From: a virus
Virus record (IMG/VR): IMGVR_UViG_3300014838_000435
Span: 1 to 22,480 of that record
Direction: 5' to 3' (one strand)
DNA: 22,480 nucleotides
The translations under genes were made by a program, and so were the position numbers. Positions 7,815 through 22,414 of this stretch are shown piece by piece. The notes under the pieces were generated by a model. That model saw nothing but the letters and a program-made list of their open reading frames with translations. It had not been told where the DNA came from and made no database searches. Numbering within the stretch: the stretch's first letter is position 1; each line of letters opens with the position of its first letter.

Positions 7815-9170
7815 ATGCCATTAAATACTCCCACAACACCTAGCATTTCAGGCGTTACTCCTACCCAGGCTTTAATTACAAAGGGTGCAGATAGTAACCC
7901 ATCTTCGACATATTATGCCTTCCAGCTAACCTATAATATCAATTTATCAACTGAGGTGAAATATCTTCAGTTCGACGGAACGTTTAGTGATATCCCTACA
8001 TGGTTGAATACTACTAGCCTTCTTGCAGTAGCCCTTGTCCCAAATACTTTTTTCAGTGTTCGTCTAGCAGCTGCAACAGATGCTATAGGAACTGGTGACA
8101 CAGGATTTGGTCCTCCCGCTACTTTTACAACAGCCGCTGCTCAGCCTCTATATCAACCTTTTAGTGGTATATATTCTACACAAGTAACGGCTAATTGGCT
8201 TCCTAATTATAATAATGATGAAACAGTTTATCAAGTACAGCTTTCAACTGATCCATCCTTTGTATTTGTTTCATTTGATACAGGGTTGACAGTAGTAAAT
8301 AATTCTTATACCTTTACAAATCTTTTACCAAATACGATCTATTATGGACGGGTACAAGCTACCAATGGATTTCTCACATCAGGTTATACAACTTTAGGTT
8401 CTGTAACAACTTTAGCAGGACCAGGAGTTGTGCAGGGAATTCGTTCTACGAATCTCTTGGCCAATCGTGGATTTATTATTCAATGGTCGTCTAATCCAGC
8501 ACCAAATATTTCAGTTTATAGAGTGTATCGAAGTAGTTCTCCTACTGACAACAGTAGTTTTTACATGATTGGAACTACACCAGCAAATGTGACTTCTTGT
8601 ATTGATAATGTTCCCTATACTTTTGGGATTACCTGGTATTATAAAGTTACTGCTCTTGATAATGGTAATAACGAGAGTAGCCTTGATCTTACTTCACCTG
8701 TTCAAGATATGTCGTTTTCTCAATTCGTTGAGCAGCCCTTTCCCACTCAAGTTGAGGTGGGGGATTTGGTTAATGATGAAATTCCAAGTGGATTAATAAA
8801 TGGTATATTCACTACAATTACAACAGTAACAGACGGCACTCATCTGGTAGTAGGAAGTACAGCGGGTTTAATACTTGGAGCAGCTGAGGATTTAACTGCT
8901 GGTATTCCCTTCACTATTGTAACTATAACAGATGGTACACATCTCATTGTTTCTAATACTGCTGGAATGACGGCAGGTGATACAACTGTTCAAGGGAATA
9001 CTTTATATACAACTACTTATCCATTTAAAGGCAGTTCACTCAGTATCTATCTTAATGGTGTGAAATTGATGCAAGGCATTGATTTTATTTTGAATATCCC
9101 CCAGCAATTTACACTTTTGGCTCCTCCTGAAACTGGGGATTACTTGAGAGTATCCTATCTCAAGTACTAG
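7815..9170 (+). CDS. Multi-fibronectin-III virion protein with inserted repeat module
   Basis: The 451-residue product has three fibronectin-III-like domains, at about residues 5-110, 112-200 and 203-305. Each has the late strand pattern (LVPNTFFSVRLAA, LLPNTIYYGRVQA, GITWYYKVTALDN). The first domain is paralogous to that of the 3773 gene. A C-terminal domain follows, starting EVGDLVNDEIPSGLING and ending SLSIYLNGVKLMQGIDF and PPETGDYLRVSYLKY. That end domain is interrupted at residues 332-397 by two VTDGTHLVVGST-type repeats. The same end domain, uninterrupted, closes the fibre at 9767. Fibronectin-III domains on phage virions are thought to aid weak surface binding. A GAGG at 7801 supports the start, and the gene follows its neighbour by two bases. 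Location in collar or fibre is inferred. Confidence 0.75.
   Translation: MPLNTPTTPSISGVTPTQALITKGADSNPSSTYYAFQLTYNINLSTEVKYLQFDGTFSDIPTWLNTTSLLAVALVPNTFFSVRLAAATDAIGTGDTGFGPPATFTTAAAQPLYQPFSGIYSTQVTANWLPNYNNDETVYQVQLSTDPSFVFVSFDTGLTVVNNSYTFTNLLPNTIYYGRVQATNGFLTSGYTTLGSVTTLAGPGVVQGIRSTNLLANRGFIIQWSSNPAPNISVYRVYRSSSPTDNSSFYMIGTTPANVTSCIDNVPYTFGITWYYKVTALDNGNNESSLDLTSPVQDMSFSQFVEQPFPTQVEVGDLVNDEIPSGLINGIFTTITTVTDGTHLVVGSTAGLILGAAEDLTAGIPFTIVTITDGTHLIVSNTAGMTAGDTTVQGNTLYTTTYPFKGSSLSIYLNGVKLMQGIDFILNIPQQFTLLAPPETGDYLRVSYLKY
8808..9005 (+). repeat. Inserted THL-repeat module, copy in the fibronectin-III protein
   Basis: Two protein-level repeats of about 33 residues are visible. Their cores are VTDGTHLVVGSTAGL and ITDGTHLIVSNTAGM, with the first tail ending AAEDLTAGIPF and the second GDTTVQGNT. 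They interrupt the C-terminal domain between GLINGI and YTTTYPFKGSSLSIYLNG. The same type of repeat occurs at 10895-11290 and 17379-17567. DNA identity between copies is modest. Confidence 0.7.
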
Positions 9171-12432: not shown

Positions 12433-13737
12433 ATGTCAACTCCTACCGAGATTCAAGTAGATCAAATACGTCCAGGATCTGCCTATCAATTAATAGGTGC
12501 CAATTCTGTTGCCACTAAGAATGTATACCTATCATTGGCAGGGACAACTAACCAAATTAGTGTTGGTACCACAGGTACTACTTTAACTCTGAGTACTCCG
12601 TTGACAAGTTCTTTGTCCTATACATTTCCCTCATCCAGAGGAACTAGCGGATATTTCTTGCAAACAGATGGAAGTACTGCTAATTTAGTTTGGGCTGCAG
12701 GGGGTGGTGTAACTGGTGTTAAGACAGGTGCTGGAGCTACTGAAACAGGAGTAATTACCTTAACCGCTGGAACTAATGTTACTATTACAGATAGTCCTGC
12801 AGGGACATTTACAATTAATTCAACAGGTAGTAGCTATACAGCAGGAACTGGTCTTACCTTAACAGGTACTGTATTTAGTCTCACTAATCCAGTTACAGTA
12901 GCATTAGGTGGTACAGGTGATACTTCTTTAACAGCTTATGCAGTTTTAACTGGTGGTACTACTTCAACAGGTGCAGTTCAATCAGTATCAGGAGTAGGAA
13001 CTGCTGGTCAGGCATTGACATCTAATGGTGCTGGGGCTCTTCCGACATGGCAAAATGTATCTGGATCAGGAACAGTTAATAGTGGTACAGCAGGTCAACT
13101 TGCTTATTATGCTACTTCTACGAATGCTGTTAGTGGTAGTTCTATAACAGTTAGTGGTTCTACAATAACAGGTTCATTAACAGGTCATTCTAGTTTAGAT
13201 TTAGCTTTAACTGGCGGCACTATGTCAGGTGCTATCGCCATGGGTTCCAATAAGATTACTAATTTAGCTAATGGTACAGCGGCAACTGATGCAGTAGCCT
13301 ATGGGCAACTTCAAATTTTACAGTCCTTGGTATCTTCTACTACTACGGGGGATACTAGTACAACATCCACCACTTTTGTAACTACGGCTTTTTCCGTATC
13401 AATTACTCCAACATCTGCAAGTTCACGCATTCTTCTTAGAGTATATGGGAATTTGGGCTGTACAGCTTCAAATGTTGTTGGGGCTTACAGTATTGCGACT
13501 ATTTACCGAGGGTCTAGTACAAATCTAGGAGACGCTACGTTTGGTTTGGCTTTTAATACATGCGAGGTTAGTGGCGTTGCTAACTACCAGGCTGTCGCAT
13601 TTGGGTACATAGATTCACCAGCAACAACAAGTGCAGTAACATATACGGTTTATTTGAGATCTAGTTCTGTTGGCAATACAGCAAGATGGGATGCTAGTGC
13701 AGTTCCTCAATTATTTACTGCTGAGGAGATAAGATAA
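12433..13737 (+). CDS. Tail fibre protein
   Basis: The 434-residue product is a typical phage fibre. It begins MSTPTEIQVDQIRPGSAYQL, then has a FPSSRGTSGYFLQTDGST segment and GTNVTIT/GTFTINSTG strands. The widespread shaft motif ALGGTGDTSLTAYAVLTGG and GQALTSNGAGALPTWQNV follow. A GSNKITNLANGTAATDA unit matches fibre sequences elsewhere. From about residue 300 the C-terminal domain (TSTTFVTTAFSVSITPTSAS, SRILLRVYGNLG) looks like a terminal beta-sandwich head. An AAGGG at 12423 precedes the ATG. Together with the 9767 and 13776 genes it makes the receptor-facing part of the virion. The stop overlaps an 11-codon frame that leads into the next gene. Confidence 0.8.
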   Translation: MSTPTEIQVDQIRPGSAYQLIGANSVATKNVYLSLAGTTNQISVGTTGTTLTLSTPLTSSLSYTFPSSRGTSGYFLQTDGSTANLVWAAGGGVTGVKTGAGATETGVITLTAGTNVTITDSPAGTFTINSTGSSYTAGTGLTLTGTVFSLTNPVTVALGGTGDTSLTAYAVLTGGTTSTGAVQSVSGVGTAGQALTSNGAGALPTWQNVSGSGTVNSGTAGQLAYYATSTNAVSGSSITVSGSTITGSLTGHSSLDLALTGGTMSGAIAMGSNKITNLANGTAATDAVAYGQLQILQSLVSSTTTGDTSTTSTTFVTTAFSVSITPTSASSRILLRVYGNLGCTASNVVGAYSIATIYRGSSTNLGDATFGLAFNTCEVSGVANYQAVAFGYIDSPATTSAVTYTVYLRSSSVGNTARWDASAVPQLFTAEEIR

Positions 13738-13775: not shown

Positions 13776-15125
13776 ATGGGATTACCAGTTTTTAAACATA
13801 TTAATGCGGAAGAACAGATATTTGATGGTACAATTGCAACATCACTGTATGCTCTGAGGTCTGTTACTGTTGCTGTAATGAACATTGATGGAAATCTTAC
13901 TTTTAATAACAATCAAGCATTAAACTTTAGACTTGAAAACGTCTCTTCTCTTCCTGCTGCAGGTAATCCAGGAAGACTTGTTTTGGATACAACAAATAAT
14001 ACTATTTATGTTGATACAGGTCTTTCATTTCAACCTATTTCTGGTGGTGGGACTCCAGGAGGTTCTTCTGGCGATATTCAGTTTAATGATAGTGGGGTAT
14101 TTAGTGGTGACAGCAATTTAACATATTCTAATGGTACTTTAACGTTAGGTAAAGCTCCTGTATTTCCAATTTCTACGTTCTTAGCTAGTTCTACTCTGAT
14201 CGTCCCAGATTACACAAGTAATGGTAATACTTTAAATTTTAATAATTCGATCCCCCGATCTTCTGATGTTCCAGCTCAACTCCCCAGTATTTCCTCATCC
14301 CTTGCATTAGATGGAACAGATGTTGGTACAAATTCTATTCTTGGAACGGCAGATAATTTATCAACATTTTCTGTTAGCTTTTGGATTAAATTTACTTATG
14401 TTTCTAGTCGAGTAGAAATTATTGGGAAAGTTAATTCCTCTCCAAATTATGGATGGTTTTTTTGGACAGAAACTAATGGGGACGTAAACTTTGCAATTTC
14501 AGGTCTTGTTGGGCAATCCACTATAGCTACCTCACCCCTAAATGATGGTAATTGGCATAATATTGTTGGGACTTTTACTACTTCAGGTTCTAATAATATG
14601 AATTTATATGTAGATGGGTCTTTAGCTAGTTCTTCTACTACAGGGACGATTGGCTCTTTTGCAGCAGACAATCCAGTTAAAGTAGCCGATACTATGATTT
14701 GGTCTCCTTCTTATACTGGGAAATTAGTAGATGCTAGAATTTATTCTGTAGCACTTTCTTCAGTTGATGTTTCTAGCATATTTTCTGGAGGTGATCCAGA
14801 ATCATCTTTTAAATTGTTAGAATGGGTTCCTGCAAGTATAGCTATTGATGCACAACTTAGTTCAACTGTTATAGTTACTGTAGATGATCCCTGTGTTCTT
14901 TCTGGTCCTATTAATCCTTATGACGGTCAGAAACTTACATTTAGATTTGATCAGGATAGTACAGGTCATGCAGTTACTCTAGCTACGGGATCTGGTAATT
15001 TCAGATTTGGATCAGATATAACATCCTTCACAGCTTCTGGAGCCAATTTGAAAGATTATGTTGGGATTATATGGGATAATTCAGCTACTATTTGGGATGT
15101 TGTTTCTGTTATTAGGGGATTTTAG
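13776..15125 (+). CDS. LamG-like lectin-domain virion protein
   Basis: The 449-residue product starts MGLPVFKHINAEEQI, sharing that motif with the 9179 gene. It runs through fibre-like beta-segments (PGRLVLDTTNNTIYVDTG, GSSGDIQFNDSGVF). A laminin-G/concanavalin-like lectin domain lies at about residues 165-330, with FSVSFWIKF, YGWFFWTETNGDVNF, NDGNWHNIVGTF, MNLYVDGSLA and KLVDARIYSVALS. These are the standard landmarks (WIK opening, DGxWHxI, LYVDG, and a final D-x-RIY). A separate C-terminal domain of about 100 residues (GPINPYDGQKLTFRF onward) may fold on the virion. LamG domains bind carbohydrate or protein, so host-surface binding is likely. The next gene encodes a second LamG protein. Confidence 0.78.
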   Translation: MGLPVFKHINAEEQIFDGTIATSLYALRSVTVAVMNIDGNLTFNNNQALNFRLENVSSLPAAGNPGRLVLDTTNNTIYVDTGLSFQPISGGGTPGGSSGDIQFNDSGVFSGDSNLTYSNGTLTLGKAPVFPISTFLASSTLIVPDYTSNGNTLNFNNSIPRSSDVPAQLPSISSSLALDGTDVGTNSILGTADNLSTFSVSFWIKFTYVSSRVEIIGKVNSSPNYGWFFWTETNGDVNFAISGLVGQSTIATSPLNDGNWHNIVGTFTTSGSNNMNLYVDGSLASSSTTGTIGSFAADNPVKVADTMIWSPSYTGKLVDARIYSVALSSVDVSSIFSGGDPESSFKLLEWVPASIAIDAQLSSTVIVTVDDPCVLSGPINPYDGQKLTFRFDQDSTGHAVTLATGSGNFRFGSDITSFTASGANLKDYVGIIWDNSATIWDVVSVIRGF

Positions 15126-15128
15126 TAT

Positions 15129-15839
15129 ATGCCTACTGCGACATCTCTTTGGTCTATTGACTTATCTTTAACATCCTCTGGAAGTAATAGCAATAATGCC
15201 TTAGCGGATAGTCTCCCACAATTTTCAGGAAATTTTTGGCTTAAATGGACTAGCTCTCAGACTAATATGGGAATCTTTATTAAAGGGGAAACAGCATCAC
15301 CTGGATGGCTATTCTATACAGATGATCATGGTGGTGGTTTTCAGTTCCAAATTATCTATAATGATTTACAGGAATACAATGTTCAGTGCAGAGGGGCACA
15401 TAATGATGGACTTTGGCACTCCATTGCCTTTACTTATGATCAAAATAGTGCAGGTTTGATTTATGTAGATGGTGTTCTGCAGACTCTTTTGCATGATTTT
15501 CTTCCCAGTCCTCTTGTACAAGGATTTAATGCCACACAACCTTTTGTAATGGGAGTAGGTATAGAAGATAACCCAGCGTTATTTAGTTTAGATGAAGTTG
15601 CGTTATGGAATCGTGTTTTGTCAGTTGATGAAGTAAGAGCATTGGCGGCTGGTAATTCTCCCAGTAGTTCAGGGTTATTATCTTATTGGAGAATTGAAGA
15701 GGGAAGCGGATTAGTTCTTAATGATTCATCTGGAAATGGGAATACTGTTACTTTTAATGATATAACTTGGGATTCAAGTGTTCCTCCACCCTTTTGGCAA
15801 CCAACGTATAGATCTAGTTCTATGAATTTAGTTTTTTAA
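15129..15839 (+). CDS. LamG-like lectin protein
   Basis: The 236-residue product is essentially one LamG/concanavalin-like domain. It shows FWLKWTSSQTNMGIFIKGE, PGWLFYTDDHGGGFQFQI, NDGLWHSIAFTYDQNS, GLIYVDGVLQ, FSLDEVALWNRVLSVDEV and a closing LLSYWRIEEGSGLVLNDSSG. The DGLWHSI and DEVALWNRxLS motifs are diagnostic. Unlike the previous gene it lacks a virion-type N-terminus, so it may be a free adhesin that attaches to the fibre encoded upstream. An AGGGG at 15114-15118 gives its ribosome site. Only three bases separate it from the 13776 gene, and the tandem pair probably arose by duplication followed by divergence. Confidence 0.78.
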   Translation: MPTATSLWSIDLSLTSSGSNSNNALADSLPQFSGNFWLKWTSSQTNMGIFIKGETASPGWLFYTDDHGGGFQFQIIYNDLQEYNVQCRGAHNDGLWHSIAFTYDQNSAGLIYVDGVLQTLLHDFLPSPLVQGFNATQPFVMGVGIEDNPALFSLDEVALWNRVLSVDEVRALAAGNSPSSSGLLSYWRIEEGSGLVLNDSSGNGNTVTFNDITWDSSVPPPFWQPTYRSSSMNLVF

Positions 15840-16418: not shown

Positions 16419-17765
16419 ATGAATAGTAACCCTTATCTCATCCTTACACGAGTACGCAATGCAGTCATCCTTGAGCTTAGAGAAATTTTTGTACCTAGAC
16501 ATAATCTTGCGGTGCCTAATTTCGAATATCCTTACATTGAATCAGCAGCTACTGGATCTGTTCAGTTTTATGGTAATCCTGCTGTCAATGATACTTTTGT
16601 CATTGGTTTAAATACAATTACTTTTGGTGTCACTGTTCCTATTGGTCTGACACAACAAATTACTTTAGCAAATTTAGTTGCCTATATTAATGCTAATTCC
16701 TCAACTTTACTTGTAGCAGCTACAACAAATTCAATTCCAAATAAAGTGTCTCTTACTGCAATTGCAACAGGTGCTGCTGGAAATGCAATTACTTTAGCTA
16801 TCTCCTCAACTGCTTTAAGAGTTTCAGCTCCTACTCTTACTCAAGGTGGACTATTTGATTTTGATAATTCAGAAATTTTTATAAGTGATGCAGTGCCTCA
16901 AGATTTTCAGGACTGGCCTTGTCTAATTGTTGATACCGCTAGTGCAAGCGAGACACGATACTTAGGACCAGAGGACTCTTTCGAATTAAAGAATACCTCT
17001 AATGTAGTAACACAATCAGAAATATTTTCAAGTTTGGTAGTGAATGTAAATATTAAACTTTATGTAATTGATGACACTTTAGCTAGAGATAAAATTATTG
17101 ACTTGATTTATAATAATATGTCAGAGATTAGACACCAGTTGGCTGTAAATGGAATTGAGATGATTGATCGTACTATGCCTAATGAGACAAGAATAGCTCA
17201 GAATCAAAGAATTTATATAGAAAACCATTTTATTTTAAGGGTTTATTGTGAATGGTCTGATAGTCTTACTCCAATAGTGAACGTTTCTGGAATAGGAGTA
17301 TCAGTTCCTGTTCAAACAGCTCTTGCTCCAATTATAAATAGTCCCTTAAGTGCTTCTTATAGTCATGGGATGCAATTTGTAGTGGATACCGTTGTTGATA
17401 GTACCCATTTAAATGTAGAAAGTGCTTATGGAATGGTTAATGGAAACACAATTGTTCAAGGTACACATAGCACAACAATTGTAAATGTAATAGATAACAA
17501 TCATTTAGAAGTAGGATCTACAACAGGCTGGATAGCAGGAATTGCCACAGATACATCGGCTAATTTGCCTTTTAATTACTTGATTACCGCCTTAAATAAT
17601 CCTACTTCCTATGCAGCTATAGGACTGCCTACAGGACTCTCTGTAAATGCTTCAAATGGGCTTATAAGTGGCATTCCTAGCCCAGTTGGTACCTACTATG
17701 CAACTTTGTCAGCTATCAATGCAACAGGCACAGGAACACAGAGTTTGACCATCACAGTATCTTAA
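16419..17765 (+). CDS. Tail-terminator-like neck protein with two inserted or appended modules
   Basis: The 448-residue product has an alpha-helical start (LTRVRNAVILELREIF) and a core at about residues 148-290 (SDAVPQDFQDWPCLIVDTAS, MSEIRHQLAVNGIEMIDRTM, ENHFILRVYCEWSD). These match a tail-completion or terminator type protein by position and pattern. A beta-rich unit of about 100 residues is inserted between them (GNPAVNDTFVIGLNTITFGV through TLTQGG). A putative-Ig domain is appended (APIINSPLSA, LPTGLSVNASNGLISGIP, TLSAINATGTGTQSLTITV). Residues 321-383 inside that Ig domain are a THL-repeat module. The core would cap the tail tube. The extra domains would decorate the neck outside. The Shine-Dalgarno site is weak, and the start sits two bases after the previous stop. 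Confidence 0.65.
   Translation: MNSNPYLILTRVRNAVILELREIFVPRHNLAVPNFEYPYIESAATGSVQFYGNPAVNDTFVIGLNTITFGVTVPIGLTQQITLANLVAYINANSSTLLVAATTNSIPNKVSLTAIATGAAGNAITLAISSTALRVSAPTLTQGGLFDFDNSEIFISDAVPQDFQDWPCLIVDTASASETRYLGPEDSFELKNTSNVVTQSEIFSSLVVNVNIKLYVIDDTLARDKIIDLIYNNMSEIRHQLAVNGIEMIDRTMPNETRIAQNQRIYIENHFILRVYCEWSDSLTPIVNVSGIGVSVPVQTALAPIINSPLSASYSHGMQFVVDTVVDSTHLNVESAYGMVNGNTIVQGTHSTTIVNVIDNNHLEVGSTTGWIAGIATDTSANLPFNYLITALNNPTSYAAIGLPTGLSVNASNGLISGIPSPVGTYYATLSAINATGTGTQSLTITVS
17379..17567 (+). repeat. Inserted THL-repeat module, copy in the neck protein
   Basis: Two repeats with cores VVDSTHLNVESAYGM and VIDNNHLEVGSTTGW lie between SYSHGMQF and PFNYLITALNN, splitting a putative-Ig domain near its beginning. 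The tails read VQGTHS and GIATDTSA, the same two tail types seen in the other copies but in reverse order relative to 8808. Confidence 0.7.
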
Positions 17766-17792
17766 GTAGATAAGTTTGATTTAAGAAGAAAA

Positions 17793-17833
17793 AGTATAAT
17801 ATTTCTGCGTTATTATAGGAGTACTACGTGTAG
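17793..17833 (+). promoter_or_regulatory. Leader element, copy 2 of 2, upstream of the sheath gene
   Basis: This copy shares 17 identical bases with 6167-6183, then TATTATAGG and the following ribosome-site and start region. The aligned start codon is GTG (17828-17830) followed at once by TAG, so no protein can come from it. A 6-bp inverted repeat (CTACGT and ACGTAG around GTAG, 17824-17839) forms just here. The 146-base gap from 17766 to 17911 holds this element, the hairpin and, at its end, the AAGGAG (17900-17905) of the sheath gene. TATAAT at 17795-17800 has no matching -35 box. Confidence 0.55.
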
Positions 17834-17911
17834 ACGTAGGATGTTGCTATTTATAAAACAAATTTTTGTAGCTAAATCGATTTAAAACTTAGTAGTTATA
17901 AGGAGATTCCT

Positions 17912-20176
17912 ATGCCCCAAGTTAATGGCCAATTTGTAACCCCAGGTGTGTTCACAACTGTTCAGGCTAACGCTGAGCCTACAAGCGGCCAGGGTGTACG
18001 CATACCTGCTCTGATAGGAACGGGAAAGCTAACGAATACTGCATCTAACGTTGCAATTCTTCGTGGTAGCGGATCTACAGATACATTATCTCCTGCTGCA
18101 GTTTCTATCGATGGAAACATTCAGGATTCAAATTTTATTATCTATTACAATGGTGTAGATTTTACATTGAATAGTGGTAATGTAGAATGGCTTTCTCTTG
18201 CTGCTCAACTTACTGGTACAACCTTTGATCCTTATGCAAGTCTTAGTGGATTGAATTTTCAGTTGGCTATTGCTAATGGTGCAGTGCAGACAATTCCATT
18301 TACAACTGAGACAACCGCAGCTGAAGTGGCTGCTACATTGAATGTATGGTTTACGGGGCATTCTATTGCAGCAGTGGCATCGGCTACCGAAATTACAGTA
18401 CCTGCTCTTGCTTCTGCAGCTACATATGCAGTTATTGCAAGTAGCACAATCACAAACACAGGAAGCACAACTCTTACAGGAAATGTTGCTCTCAGCCCAG
18501 CAGGTTCTATTACAGGAACACCAACCGTTGTTGGCACTACACATAATGGTGATGCAGCTGCCGCAACAGCTTTAGCTGACGCTAATACTGCATACACTGC
18601 TTTTGCAGCTCTTACTGGTGCAACAGTTCTGACAGGCGATTTAGGTGGACGTACCCTCACTGCAGGAGTTTATAAATTTTCTTCTTCAGCAGCTCTTACT
18701 GGTACTCTCACATTAGATGGTCAGGGCAATCCTAATGCTCAATGGGTATTCCAGATTGGTTCTACCCTAGTAACCGCTGTTGCCTCTTCAGTTGTTATGA
18801 TTAACAGTGGAAATGCAGGTAACGTTTATTGGCAAGTTGGAAGTTCTGCTACATTAGGAACGGGCTCATCTTTTAAGGGAACTATTCTTGCTTTAGCAAG
18901 TGTTACTGATGATGGTGGGAGCACAATTTCTGGTCGTTTGTTTGCTCTTACAGCAGCAGTGACTTTAAATAATACTGCAGATACAGTTGTTGCAGGATCT
19001 TCTACTCCAGGATCTCTAATAATTGCAACAACTGCTGTTTCAGATTCTTCTTTGTATATTGGTGCAGGAACAGCTAATGCAATTCTTGGATTTACTGCAG
19101 GTTCATTTGTAGAAACTCCTCAAGCCCCTCTTGCAGGTGTTACTTATTATGTAACTTATGAGTATGCTAAAGTTGCAGCCGATTATACACCTAAGTTTTA
19201 TTTTACATTAGCAGCAGTTGTAACTGATTATGGTCCAGTTAGCATTTCTAATTCTATTTCACTTGGGGCAAGTTTGGCATTCCAAAATAGTGCTCCAGAA
19301 GTTTGTGTATGCCAGGAAAGTCCATTTGACGGTGGATCACCTATCGCTCAAGTTCAAGCTGCTTTGAATAAACTTCTTTCTACACAGAATATTAGTATTG
19401 TAGTTTCCTTGGAAGGAGCTTCGAATGCACAGCTTCTGTCAGCAATTAAGCAGCATGTAGATACTGCAAGTTCTACTATTAATAAACTAGAAAGAACAGC
19501 CATTGTTGGTTTTGATGAAACGGTTGCCTCTTATTCAGATTCAGATATGACTCAATATGCTGCAGCAGTAGCTGACAATCGTATTGTTCTTTTGAATTCT
19601 TCAACTGTTAAGAATACAATGTTTATTGGACAGGCAACAACTGCAACAGCGGTTGGTAGTCAATTTGTTGCAGCAGCCTTGGCTGGTGTTCGCTGTAATC
19701 CAGCTTATGATGTAGCACAGCCAATGACTCGTGAAGTTATTTCTGGCTTTGCAACCATTGCAAATACTTTGACTCAGGCAGAAAAATCCTTGCTTATTAA
19801 TGAAGGCGTTTGTGTAATTGATGTACTTCAGTCTGTTCCAAAAGTTTTGTTCGGTACAACAACAGATCCTTCTACAGTATTGTCACAGTTGTTCCAGGTG
19901 ACTCAAATCGCGGATTACACCACACAGACATTGCGTGGACTTCTTGACCCAATTTTCATCGGTCAGAAACTTTTGGCAAATACGCCAAGCCAAGTAGCTA
20001 CTGTTGTATCAGCTATTCTTTCAACTATTCAACAGAGTAATATTATTGTTTCATTTACACAACCTGTTGTAACTGTTGATGCTAATGATGCGACGAGGTT
20101 GGACGTTTCAGTAGGTATCGTGCCCGTCTTAGAGGCAGATATAATTTTCATAACACTTGGGCTTAACCTTCAGTAA
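17912..20176 (+). CDS. Contractile tail sheath protein with an inserted ice-binding-type domain
   Basis: The C-terminal half of this 754-residue protein fits a tail sheath. It includes QVQAALNKLLSTQNISIVV, DSDMTQYAAAVADNRIVLLN, VAAALAGVRCNPAYDVAQPM, TQAEKSLLINEGVCVIDVLQ and QTLRGLLDPIFIGQKLLAN, matching the GVR, late-loop and C-terminal arm region of sheaths. The N-terminus (VNGQFVTPGVFTTV) fits too. Residues 100-410 hold accessory domains. Within them residues 172-360 match the DUF3494 ice-binding-protein fold: AVIASSTITNTGSTTLTGN, GDLGGRTLTAGVYKFSSSAA, LTGTLTLDGQGNPNAQWVFQ, VYWQVGSSATLGTGSSFKGT. The sheath polymerises around the tube and contracts to drive it into the host. The extra domain would point outward. 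An AAGGAG and the tube gene downstream support the call. Confidence 0.88.
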   Translation: MPQVNGQFVTPGVFTTVQANAEPTSGQGVRIPALIGTGKLTNTASNVAILRGSGSTDTLSPAAVSIDGNIQDSNFIIYYNGVDFTLNSGNVEWLSLAAQLTGTTFDPYASLSGLNFQLAIANGAVQTIPFTTETTAAEVAATLNVWFTGHSIAAVASATEITVPALASAATYAVIASSTITNTGSTTLTGNVALSPAGSITGTPTVVGTTHNGDAAAATALADANTAYTAFAALTGATVLTGDLGGRTLTAGVYKFSSSAALTGTLTLDGQGNPNAQWVFQIGSTLVTAVASSVVMINSGNAGNVYWQVGSSATLGTGSSFKGTILALASVTDDGGSTISGRLFALTAAVTLNNTADTVVAGSSTPGSLIIATTAVSDSSLYIGAGTANAILGFTAGSFVETPQAPLAGVTYYVTYEYAKVAADYTPKFYFTLAAVVTDYGPVSISNSISLGASLAFQNSAPEVCVCQESPFDGGSPIAQVQAALNKLLSTQNISIVVSLEGASNAQLLSAIKQHVDTASSTINKLERTAIVGFDETVASYSDSDMTQYAAAVADNRIVLLNSSTVKNTMFIGQATTATAVGSQFVAAALAGVRCNPAYDVAQPMTREVISGFATIANTLTQAEKSLLINEGVCVIDVLQSVPKVLFGTTTDPSTVLSQLFQVTQIADYTTQTLRGLLDPIFIGQKLLANTPSQVATVVSAILSTIQQSNIIVSFTQPVVTVDANDATRLDVSVGIVPVLEADIIFITLGLNLQ
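18425..18985 (+). other. DUF3494 (ice-binding protein type) domain inside the sheath gene
   Basis: The segment encodes residues 172 to about 358. Landmarks in order are a start with AxxSTxTNTGxTxxxGNxxxSP, GTTHNGDAAAATALAD (helix), LGGRTLTAGVYK, LTGTLTLDGQGNPNA, FQIGSTL, QVGSSATLGTGSSFKGTILA and SGRLFALTAAVTL. Length and order match the whole discontinuous beta-solenoid domain. It interrupts another accessory domain, whose halves are NFQLAIANGAVQTIPFTTE (with AAEVAATLN) before it and SLYIGAGTANAILGFTAG after it. Confidence 0.85.
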
Positions 20177-20219
20177 TTTGATAAAGAAAAGATTTTAAAG
20201 AACCTTAAGGAGAATCACA

Positions 20220-20750
20220 ATGGCTGAACTCGGTAATACTAATGCAAGGCTGTCAACTAGTGTTTCACTATTCCTACTTCCAAAAAATTTGGATGCAACT
20301 ACACTTAGTAATCCTGCAGCTCTTCTTTCATTGGCTCAGCAGTCAGCCAAGATTGGGGCTGTTCAATCTTTTACGCAAACTCAGCGTCGAAACACAGACT
20401 TTCGATTTGAGCTTGATTCTGATCAACAGGGGAAACCTGTTGAGCGTTTACCAAGAACTGTTGATGAGTATTCTCTTCATGCAGATCGAGTTATGCTGTA
20501 TGTTTCGGATGCTTTAGAAATTCTTGGAATTTCTGGTGATGACATCGTGAATAATAATGCTAGTTTTGGGATTTTGAAGGTCGAAATTTCGCCCACAGGT
20601 TCTGGTGTGCCTACAAAATCTACAATCTTCACAGGAGTTTGGTGCCACTCTGTATCAGCTAGTTATAATATAAATGGTGGGGATCTCAGAATTTTAGAAG
20701 GGGTAGATTTTGGTTACACTTCTTCTACTGTTGTTGGTGTACCCGCATAA
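20220..20750 (+). CDS. Tail tube protein
   Basis: The 176-residue product follows the sheath gene, the position of the tube gene in contractile-tailed phages. It has a mixed N-terminus (LSTSVSLFLLPKNLDATTL), an extended charged section (TQRRNTDFRFELDSDQQGKP) and alternating strands with VMLYVSDALEILG, FGILKVEISPTGSG and FTGVWCHSVSASYNINGGDL. The small beta-barrel layout and size of about 18-20 kDa fit tube proteins that stack in hexamer rings inside the sheath. An AAGGAG at 20207-20212 sits at normal distance from the ATG. A promoter and HNH nuclease gene follow, so the tube and chaperone genes are split by a mobile gene. Confidence 0.75.
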   Translation: MAELGNTNARLSTSVSLFLLPKNLDATTLSNPAALLSLAQQSAKIGAVQSFTQTQRRNTDFRFELDSDQQGKPVERLPRTVDEYSLHADRVMLYVSDALEILGISGDDIVNNNASFGILKVEISPTGSGVPTKSTIFTGVWCHSVSASYNINGGDLRILEGVDFGYTSSTVVGVPA

Positions 20751-20758
20751 AATAAGCA

Positions 20759-20787
20759 TTGTAAAATAGCTTAATATATGATATACT
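20759..20787 (+). promoter_or_regulatory. Extended -10 sigma-70 promoter for the second HNH gene
   Basis: TTGTAA (20759-20764), a 17-base spacer and TATACT (20782-20787) preceded by TGA form an extended -10 promoter just after the tube gene stop. Start of transcription is expected near 20794. GAAGG (20795-20799) and the ATG at 20806 follow, so the leader is short, as at the 4675 promoter. Confidence 0.75.
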
Positions 20788-20805
20788 TATAGTTGAAGGT
20801 ATACT

Positions 20806-21699
20806 ATGAGAAAATTAAAGACAGATAGAGTTTTAGTTAAGCGTGAAAATTTTTCAATTTTGAAAAGATTTGGAAATATTTCTAAATTTGGAGATTGGGA
20901 AATTATTGATTATGCAGGGCATGAAAATAATAAGACCGATTATTGGACATGTAAATGTGCTAAAGATGGAACAATTCGTTTAGTTAATGCCTTTCATTTG
21001 CTAGATGGCTCCTCGAAAAATTGTGGATGTGCCTCAATAAATAGATTAGGGGATTTGACCAGAACTCATGGCATGTCTCATACCAGATTAAATGGTATTT
21101 GGCAACATATGATGCAGCGTTGCCTTAATCCTAATAATTCAAGATATGAAGATTATGGAGGTTCTGATATAACTGTATGTCCTGAGTGGCAAACATTTGA
21201 AGGATTCTACAAAGATGTTGGTGAATCATATAATAAACATGTAATTGAATTTGGTGTAAAAGAGACAACTTTAGATAGATTTCCTAATCAGACAGGTAAC
21301 TATGAACCTGGAAATGTTAGATGGGCAACCTATAGAGAGCAAGCTCAAAATACAAAAAGTTCTGTAACCTCTGAAAATTATAAACAACATGAGTATTATA
21401 GACATAAATTTGAAGCAGATTTGTATCAAGCTATCATAAAAAATAAAACTACTCCTTTTTTTCTTCATTATGTTGGGTTAACTTCTGACGAGTTTAAAAA
21501 GTATATTGAGTCTTTATGGCTTCCAGATATGAATTGGGGTAATCGTGGAAGATGTAATAAGAAGAAAAAAGTATGGCAAATAGATCATTGTAAAGCAAAG
21601 CATCATTTTGATTTAAGTAAAGAAAAAGATCGTTTAGAATGCTTTAATTATAAGAACTTGCAGCCACTCTGGTGGCAAGATAACAATTATAAAAGATAA
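20806..21699 (+). CDS. HNH-type homing endonuclease, paralogue of the 2919 gene
   Basis: The 297-residue product has the same order of parts as the 2919 protein. First is a Cys element (WTCKCAKDG, NCGCAS). Next come GMSHTRLNGIWQHMMQRCLN, YGGSDITVCPEWQTFEGFYK and LDRFPNQTGNYEPGNVRWAT. The C-terminal HNH-like unit has WQIDHCKAKHHFDLS and CFNYKNLQPLW ending in Asn-Tyr-Lys. The first module differs in part: GGSDI replaces GGRGI, and the Cys of GNCRW is Val, so ligand geometry may differ. It has its own sigma-70 promoter. It sits between tube and chaperone genes, which are normally adjacent, so it is an insertion. Homing activity is inferred from the family. Confidence 0.85.
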   Translation: MRKLKTDRVLVKRENFSILKRFGNISKFGDWEIIDYAGHENNKTDYWTCKCAKDGTIRLVNAFHLLDGSSKNCGCASINRLGDLTRTHGMSHTRLNGIWQHMMQRCLNPNNSRYEDYGGSDITVCPEWQTFEGFYKDVGESYNKHVIEFGVKETTLDRFPNQTGNYEPGNVRWATYREQAQNTKSSVTSENYKQHEYYRHKFEADLYQAIIKNKTTPFFLHYVGLTSDEFKKYIESLWLPDMNWGNRGRCNKKKKVWQIDHCKAKHHFDLSKEKDRLECFNYKNLQPLWWQDNNYKR

Positions 21700-21716
21700 G
21701 TATAAGGAGTCTCATC

Positions 21717-22070
21717 ATGGATTTGACAAATTTCGCCTCGCTGAATCGAGTTGAAAAAGAGTTTGAAGTAGTAAATGGTTTGAAAATTAAGATGCATACC
21801 TTAAGTGTGCTTCAGCAACAGGCAGCTCTTTCCCAATTACCTACTTCCCCATTGGGTCAAGATCCAGCCCTTCGTGCAGTTGTTCTTCAACAGGCATTAT
21901 TGATCTATGCATTAGATTCTGTTAATGGTGAGAAAATTAGCCTCGAAGATGCTACTAAGTTCATTCAAAATCTTCAGGCCCCTATTTTCAACGAGATTTA
22001 TAATTGTTATGATGCTATGGCACAAGAACAAGATACAACCTTAACTGAACTAAAAAAAAAGAAAATTTAA
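21717..22070 (+). CDS. Tail assembly chaperone, short form
   Basis: The 117-residue product begins MDLTNFASLNRVEKEFEVVN and is then mostly helical (LSVLQQQAALSQLPTSP, LRAVVLQQALLIYALDS, ATKFIQNLQAPIFNEIYN). It lies after the tube gene and before the expected tape measure gene, where the lambda G-type chaperone lies in tailed phages. It ends with a lysine run read from the A-rich slippery stretch at 22052-22060 and a TAA. A strong AAGGAG at 21704-21709 precedes the ATG. In the family this short form is made in excess and coats the tape measure during tail assembly together with the frameshifted long form. Confidence 0.8.
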   Translation: MDLTNFASLNRVEKEFEVVNGLKIKMHTLSVLQQQAALSQLPTSPLGQDPALRAVVLQQALLIYALDSVNGEKISLEDATKFIQNLQAPIFNEIYNCYDAMAQEQDTTLTELKKKKI

Positions 22071-22414
22071 TCTTCCGTGATCTTTGGATAGTTGCAAAAT
22101 CCCTCCATGTATCCCCCTTCTCCCAAGAAATTTCTAACCTATCACCTGCACAGTATACATGGATTTTGACCAATCATTTTAAGGATCAAGAGGAAGATTT
22201 TGAGTCTACAAAATTGCTTTGTCGTTTCTTAAATCCACAAGCTGCTGAAACAATATTTGACGGTAAGAAAGTTGAAAAGACTGAGAGTACCAAAGACACG
22301 ATGTTTGAAAATATGGCTCGTGATCTTAAGGGTAAATATACTCCAGAAGAACTGGCCGCTATGATGCATGATCCGAAGCATTATGAGGGTCTTGATAGGA
22401 TTGAGAAAGCCTAA
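21717..22414 (+). CDS. Tail assembly chaperone, -1 frameshift long form
   Basis: A -1 slip at A AAA AAG (22055-22061) joins 115 residues of the short form to a second frame running from 22061 to the stop at 22412-22414. This gives about 232 residues. The second part reads ENLIFRDLWIVAKSLHVSPF, then TNHFKDQEEDFE, LLCRFLNPQAAETIF and GKYTPEELAAMMHD. It has no start codon with a ribosome site. The only candidate is a TTG at 22166 with no Shine-Dalgarno site, which would drop the conserved-looking FRDLWIVAK segment. This is the G/GT arrangement of tail chaperones. I see no strong stimulating hairpin after the slip site by eye. Confidence 0.8.
22055..22061 (+). other. Programmed -1 frameshift slippery heptamer
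   Basis: In the zero frame the heptamer is A AAA AAG, the very efficient -1 site known from dnaX. It lies within a run of nine A residues, three codons before the zero-frame stop at 22068-22070. The -1 frame is open from 22049. Confidence 0.85.

Follow-up and report, generated by a model that had tools for sequence, protein, structure and literature searches.

The question raised by this locus is whether a domain of the ice-binding DUF3494 type forms part of a contractile tail sheath and, if so, what it would do along a phage tail. The window, that is, the whole stretch of viral DNA of 22,480 nucleotides that was analysed, harbors only one DUF3494 gene, whose features and downstream neighbour are as follows.

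17900..17905, + strand: ribosome-binding site AAGGAG, 5′ of the sheath ATG at 17912 (sequence)
17912..20176, + strand: tail sheath gene, 754 aa (phrog_2839; Phage_sheath_1C; fold of an insert-less orthologue)
17912..18193, + strand: sheath core, N-terminal part, residues 1-94 (alignment to insert-less sheaths; fold)
18194..18400, + strand: accessory domain, first half, residues 95-163 (alignment to L013-L020; strands in the models)
18395..18997, + strand: DUF3494/PF11999 insert, structural domain, approximately residues 162-362 (profile, model and superposition)
18431-18976, + strand: PF11999 Pfam match, residues 174-355 (profile search)
18554..18607, + strand: helix of the DUF3494 fold, residues 215-232 (model)
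19007..19093, + strand: accessory domain, second half, residues 366-394 (alignment)
19094..20173, + strand: sheath core, C-terminal part, residues 395-754 (phrog_2839 profile match; other comparisons)
20220..20750, + strand: next ORF, 176 aa, presumably the tail tube by position (conserved neighbour in the related contigs G001, G010 and G026)

The sheath gene and the domain inserted in it

The 754-aa ORF is a contractile tail sheath with conserved N- and C-terminal core parts, as an earlier note made from the letters alone had proposed. In PHROGs, the 'tail sheath' profile phrog_2839 matched residues 427-717 (E 4.1e-36), and Phage_sheath_1C of Pfam matched with an E of 0.003, under its curated cut-off. 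Since the sheath core was poorly modelled by AlphaFold2 in the window protein (15 sequences, pTM 0.39), the insert-less orthologue L015 was modelled in its stead from 21 sequences (pTM 0.69), and this model superposed on the sheath of phage 812 (8q1i) with a Z of 31.9, at 2.9 Å over 313 residues. The gene sits in a tail gene cluster with Baseplate_J (PF04865) downstream, as judged from the gene order in G001, G010 and G026. Between the sheath families phrog_2839 and phrog_279, the window protein matched only the former, and one relative, L020, was matched by both profiles, which indicates that the two families are distantly related. A pattern scan of bacterial and archaeal genomes revealed no sheath relative that might point to a host.

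As to the other genes of the window, the 176-aa ORF had no family match in Pfam or PHROGs, and an HNH endonuclease ORF (20806-21699), also found in G001, directly follows this probable tube gene. Pfam revealed decoration-type domains in five ORFs (13776-15125, 15129-15839, 7815-9170, 16419-17765 and 12433-13737), namely two Laminin_G_3, one fn3, one YadA_stalk and one He_PIG with a weak Flagellin_IN match. A weak enoyl-CoA hydratase-like PHROG match (E 3e-7) was observed at 1535-2044.

The nature of the insert was addressed by the profile search and the structure prediction that the earlier note had asked for, and both bore out its proposal. PF11999 matched over profile positions 1-205 of 208, scoring 180 bits where the cut-off is 28.7 (E 4.9e-53), and all three motifs quoted in that note are present. 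AlphaFold2 predicted, with a pLDDT of about 90-96 over most of the insert, a beta-solenoid braced by a single helix (residues 215-232), which superposed on the ice-binding protein AnpIBP (7bwy) with a Z of 34.6, at 0.9 Å over 199 residues. For the other DUF3494 proteins of solved structure, the Z was 29-35. A chance match or an artefact of composition was ruled out by the full-length profile match together with the close superposition on crystal structures, and an assembly chimera by the presence of the same architecture in at least 10 contigs.

Neither did the insert prove to be terminal. In the insert-less sheaths L014-L020 (559-624 aa), a hairpin of the accessory domain is closed at the point where the window protein is longer by 200 residues, and the alignment to these sheaths shows accessory-domain sequence on both sides of the insert, in agreement with the split accessory domain described in the earlier note. 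In AnpIBP, the coils follow the order b1-b6-b5-b4-b3-b2, the first solenoid coil being stacked on the last (PMC7277481), so that the ends of the domain would lie side by side, an arrangement fit for insertion into a turn. At the same insertion point, the sheath L013:6001-7962 carries another extra segment, for which no Pfam match was found; this sheath has a phrog_28344 match at residues 159-280.

In a survey of 112 sheaths (PMC9230969), additional domains were mostly Ig-like, located away from the tube and considered perhaps adhesive, and a cementing of the tail was also proposed for them; the survey mentions neither 'ice' nor 'solenoid'. No paper combining a tail sheath with ice binding was found in the literature searched, which agrees with the remark of the earlier note that no described sheath was known to have this fold, and this would be, as far as that literature goes, the first phage tail sheath to contain a fold of the ice-binding type. 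An accessory sheath domain is thus of a known kind, and what is new is the unusual fold, the coordinated set of tail modules, the mobility and the permuted second family described below. While the accessory domains of the phage 812 and T4 gp18 sheaths (PMC9230969) are Ig-like or of other folds, an ice-binding-type beta-solenoid is predicted here, and unlike those domains it occurs in coordination with further copies on tail-fibre-like proteins.

Mobility of the insert and its copies across the phage

The insert is mobile among sheaths, since the insert tree conflicts with the tree of the sheath cores and since neighbours on the latter differ in the presence of the insert. In the core tree, the window protein forms one clade with L002, L003 and L004, separate from L005-L010; in the insert tree, the window groups with L002 and L005-L007, and L003 falls outside. 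Sheaths with near-identical cores differ in insert presence, three sister pairs of the core tree (L009/L015, L012/L017 and L010/L019) differ in it, and the distribution of the insert on this tree is most parsimoniously explained by five gains or losses, at least three of which are forced by well-supported branches. The comparison with L006 revealed an abrupt shift of identity, from 44% in the N-terminus and 54% in the core to 93% in the insert.

The domain itself is a mosaic, as indicated by residues 316-375, which are L006-like in a sequence otherwise like that of the closest relative, L002. The DNA is mostly 90-100% identical to that of L002 and falls to about 62% around these residues, and the corresponding segment (18857-19036) matches L006 instead, with up to 97% amino acid identity. 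The insert is evidently under purifying selection, with a dN/dS of 0.07-0.16 against the diverged sheaths L003, L005, L006 and L007, and of 0.30 against L002, the latter value being inflated by the local mosaic segment.

The presence of the domain was then surveyed in 50 records that encode a sheath of one or the other family; the sheath carries DUF3494 in 21 of them and lacks the insert in 29. The former were all positive, as they must be. Further copies, outside the sheath, were observed in 12 of the 13 DUF3494-sheath contigs of at least 20 kb, and DUF3494 was found in none of the 29 insert-less records (24 of them are of at least 20 kb, and these 24 total 2.46 Mb). For the records of at least 20 kb, Fisher's test gave a p of 7e-9, a value that contig fragments and the relatedness of the phages make too optimistic. 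The domain thus seems to come and go as a set, in the sheath and in further proteins encoded by one phage.

The window stops 2.3 kb past the sheath, before the point at which G001, 94% identical to it over 17762-22374, has its other two copies. In G001, the sheath is followed by the probable tube, the HNH endonuclease, several ORFs and Baseplate_J (PF04865, E 1.2e-17), and directly after this last gene come two proteins, of 635 aa and 806 aa, each with one DUF3494 domain. The same order was found in G010, in which the first gene after Baseplate_J has two such domains and the second has one. The DUF-negative G026, whose sheath core (L017) is sister to that of G010 (L012), has both of these genes without DUF3494: its second protein presents a clean empty site, the G010 counterpart aligning to it over residues 1-378 (76%) and 598-684 (84%), and in its first protein both ends are retained (67% and 59%), with fibre-type sequence replacing the module in the middle, as judged by eye. 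Moreover, the domain of the G001 806-aa protein is 78% identical to that of the G010 sheath, which shows that the module is exchanged between genes of the sheath and of the fibre region. In other contigs, some of the extra copies could be placed in minor-tail-like, baseplate-like and unassigned proteins.

Two genes past the fibre-region proteins of G001 lies a virginiamycin B lyase-type beta-propeller protein (L251:1781-2920, − strand). Two of the viral-contig DUF3494 ORFs, L058 and L070, have an apparent hydrophobic leader and are more like secreted cellular proteins.

A permuted domain in a second sheath family

With the DUF3494 domain as the query, a scan of viral contigs yielded 105 relatives in 77 kept loci, and several of the carriers were sheaths of another family, phrog_279, so that the survey of sheaths suggested in the earlier note did find the insertion elsewhere, including in a second sheath family. 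The domain was present in 14 of the 72 phrog_279-family sheath ORFs examined, a set that includes L118 and L120, both of the window's own sheath family. From the order of the profile matches, 13 of these 14 ORFs contain a circular permutation in which the helix and coils 2-6 come first and coil 1 comes last. For the fourteenth, L130, the profile search gave the first part only, and the same order emerged when this ORF was aligned (as L092). A further diverged sheath of the phrog_279 kind, L088/L090, is also permuted. The permutation links coils 6 and 1, adjacent to each other in the fold, and no report of a circular permutation of this domain was found in the literature searched. The permuted ORFs are listed below.

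Permuted DUF3494 sheath ORFs, phrog_279-type: L056, L086, L098, L122-L131, L155, L195 and L088/L090

The B-face and the possible ligand

The six strands of the B-face, which forms the ice-binding surface of AnpIBP, were mapped onto the insert from the six AnpIBP strands (7bwx; PMC7277481).

18443..18460, + strand: b1, STITNT, residues 178-183 (alignment to AnpIBP 7bwx)
18683..18700, + strand: b2, SSAALT, residues 258-263 (alignment to AnpIBP)
18761..18778, + strand: b3, STLVTA, residues 284-289 (alignment to AnpIBP)
18842..18859, + strand: b4, SSATLG, residues 311-316 (alignment to AnpIBP)
18896..18913, + strand: b5, ASVTDD, residues 329-334 (alignment to AnpIBP)
18953..18970, + strand: b6, AAVTLN, residues 348-353 (alignment to AnpIBP)

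By this alignment, 83% of the outward positions are Ser, Thr or Ala and none is bulky, consistent with the flat face rich in Thr and Ala that the earlier note had named as needed for ice binding. Strand b4 is identical to S153-G158 of AnpIBP, including S153 and T156, both of them needed for ice binding, as the substitutions S153Y and T156Y reduce activity to 17% (PMC7277481). Nearly the same face was observed in 19 cellular relatives (72% Ser/Thr/Ala outward), a comparison in which the AnpIBP row was taken by hand from the HMMER alignment, and PF11999 is known from ice-free environments (PMC12337378). The ice-binding face of the sheath insert thus appears intact, yet it is not diagnostic of ice as the ligand. 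The outward positions were not significantly more conserved than the remaining insert (p 0.15), which left the idea of the B-face as the most conserved patch unsupported.

The type 1 DUF3494 ice-binding proteins (AnpIBP, 7bwx/7bwy; EfcIBP, 6eio; FfIBP, 4nu2; SfIBP, 6bg8) share their fold with the insert (Z 30-35), as well as the full domain, the helix, the B-face of small Ser, Thr and Ala residues and the SSATLG strand. The difference is that they are secreted or anchored to cells, whereas here the domain is an insert in a sheath subunit of the virion, repeated along the tail.

The reading we favour, with a probability of roughly 0.6, is that DUF3494 serves in adhesion, as an exchangeable module exposed along the tail. 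With its ends side by side, the module would slot into the beta-hairpin of the accessory domain, leaving the sheath core undisturbed, and would project from each sheath subunit, its outward exposure being suggested by published sheath structures (PMC9230969). As the same uncultured tailed phages also place DUF3494 on the tail-fibre-like proteins after baseplate J (G001 and G010), a single type of binding surface may cover the tail all the way from the sheath to the baseplate. The flat Ser/Thr/Ala-rich face could make many weak contacts with a regular surface, for which polysaccharide of the host envelope or matrix, mineral and ice are candidates, and such contacts would keep the virion close to its host or on a substrate. 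In the Ig-like domains of Fraser et al. 2006, as that work is cited in PMC9230969, a likewise promiscuous module occurs across virion proteins and is swapped between phages, and weak carbohydrate binding was proposed for it; the present module has another fold and would be present or absent as a set per phage.

True ice binding is rather unlikely; by this reading, the DUF3494 array would adsorb the virion to ice or inhibit recrystallisation in its surroundings, and would thereby protect the phage or hold it in position where the habitat freezes. The composition of the outward face and its SSATLG strand would suit such a role, and ice-binding proteins are the closest solved structures, but the nearly identical face of the cellular relatives and the ice-free occurrence of PF11999 weigh against it. 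The fuller version, in which ice-binding modules that were acquired more than once, with a circular permutant in one sheath family, coat the tail from the sheath to the fibre region and the virions thereby adsorb to ice or survive freeze-thaw, is unlikely; if true, the virion surface would itself act as an antifreeze or as an anchor to ice. A structural role, in which the inserts have no ligand and either stiffen the tail through contacts with their neighbours or with the accessory domain, or serve as a spacer, is more doubtful still. It would accord with the cementing function proposed for additional sheath domains (PMC9230969) and with the tolerance of orthologues to loss of the insert, but the module also occurs in fibre-region proteins and moves between both contexts, and contacts with neighbours would hardly survive such swaps. 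A pure spacer is made less likely by the purifying selection and by the sharing of the module with tail-fibre-like proteins.

The locus bears on the function of accessory sheath domains, which becomes directly testable with related phages that have and lack the module, with the well-studied assays available for it, and with its coordinated set across the sheath and the fibre region. A virus-encoded ice-binding-like protein was interpreted as the product of an auxiliary metabolic gene, with S-SKS1 named as its main viral homologue (PMC11515562). The Arctic viral contigs of that study also encode PF11999, treated there as genes for host cryoprotection; unlike those genes, the domain described here belongs to a predicted structural virion protein. 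This is also a warning that PF11999 matches in viral contigs may mark components of the virion and not auxiliary metabolic genes.

No match was obtained when cultured phages were searched by tblastn with three DUF3494 queries, under a low-complexity filter that may mask Ser/Thr-rich sequence, and a PF11999 profile search of Tunturi_5, Mx1 and S-SKS1 (NC_020851) gave none either. Large sheaths are present in Tunturi_5 (1204 aa) and Mx1 (953 aa), both with no Pfam match. Among the entries of BFVD, three from Hyperionvirus that are described as DUF3494 proteins (A0A3G5A745, A0A3G5ACG7 and A0A3G5AEI1) match the insert.
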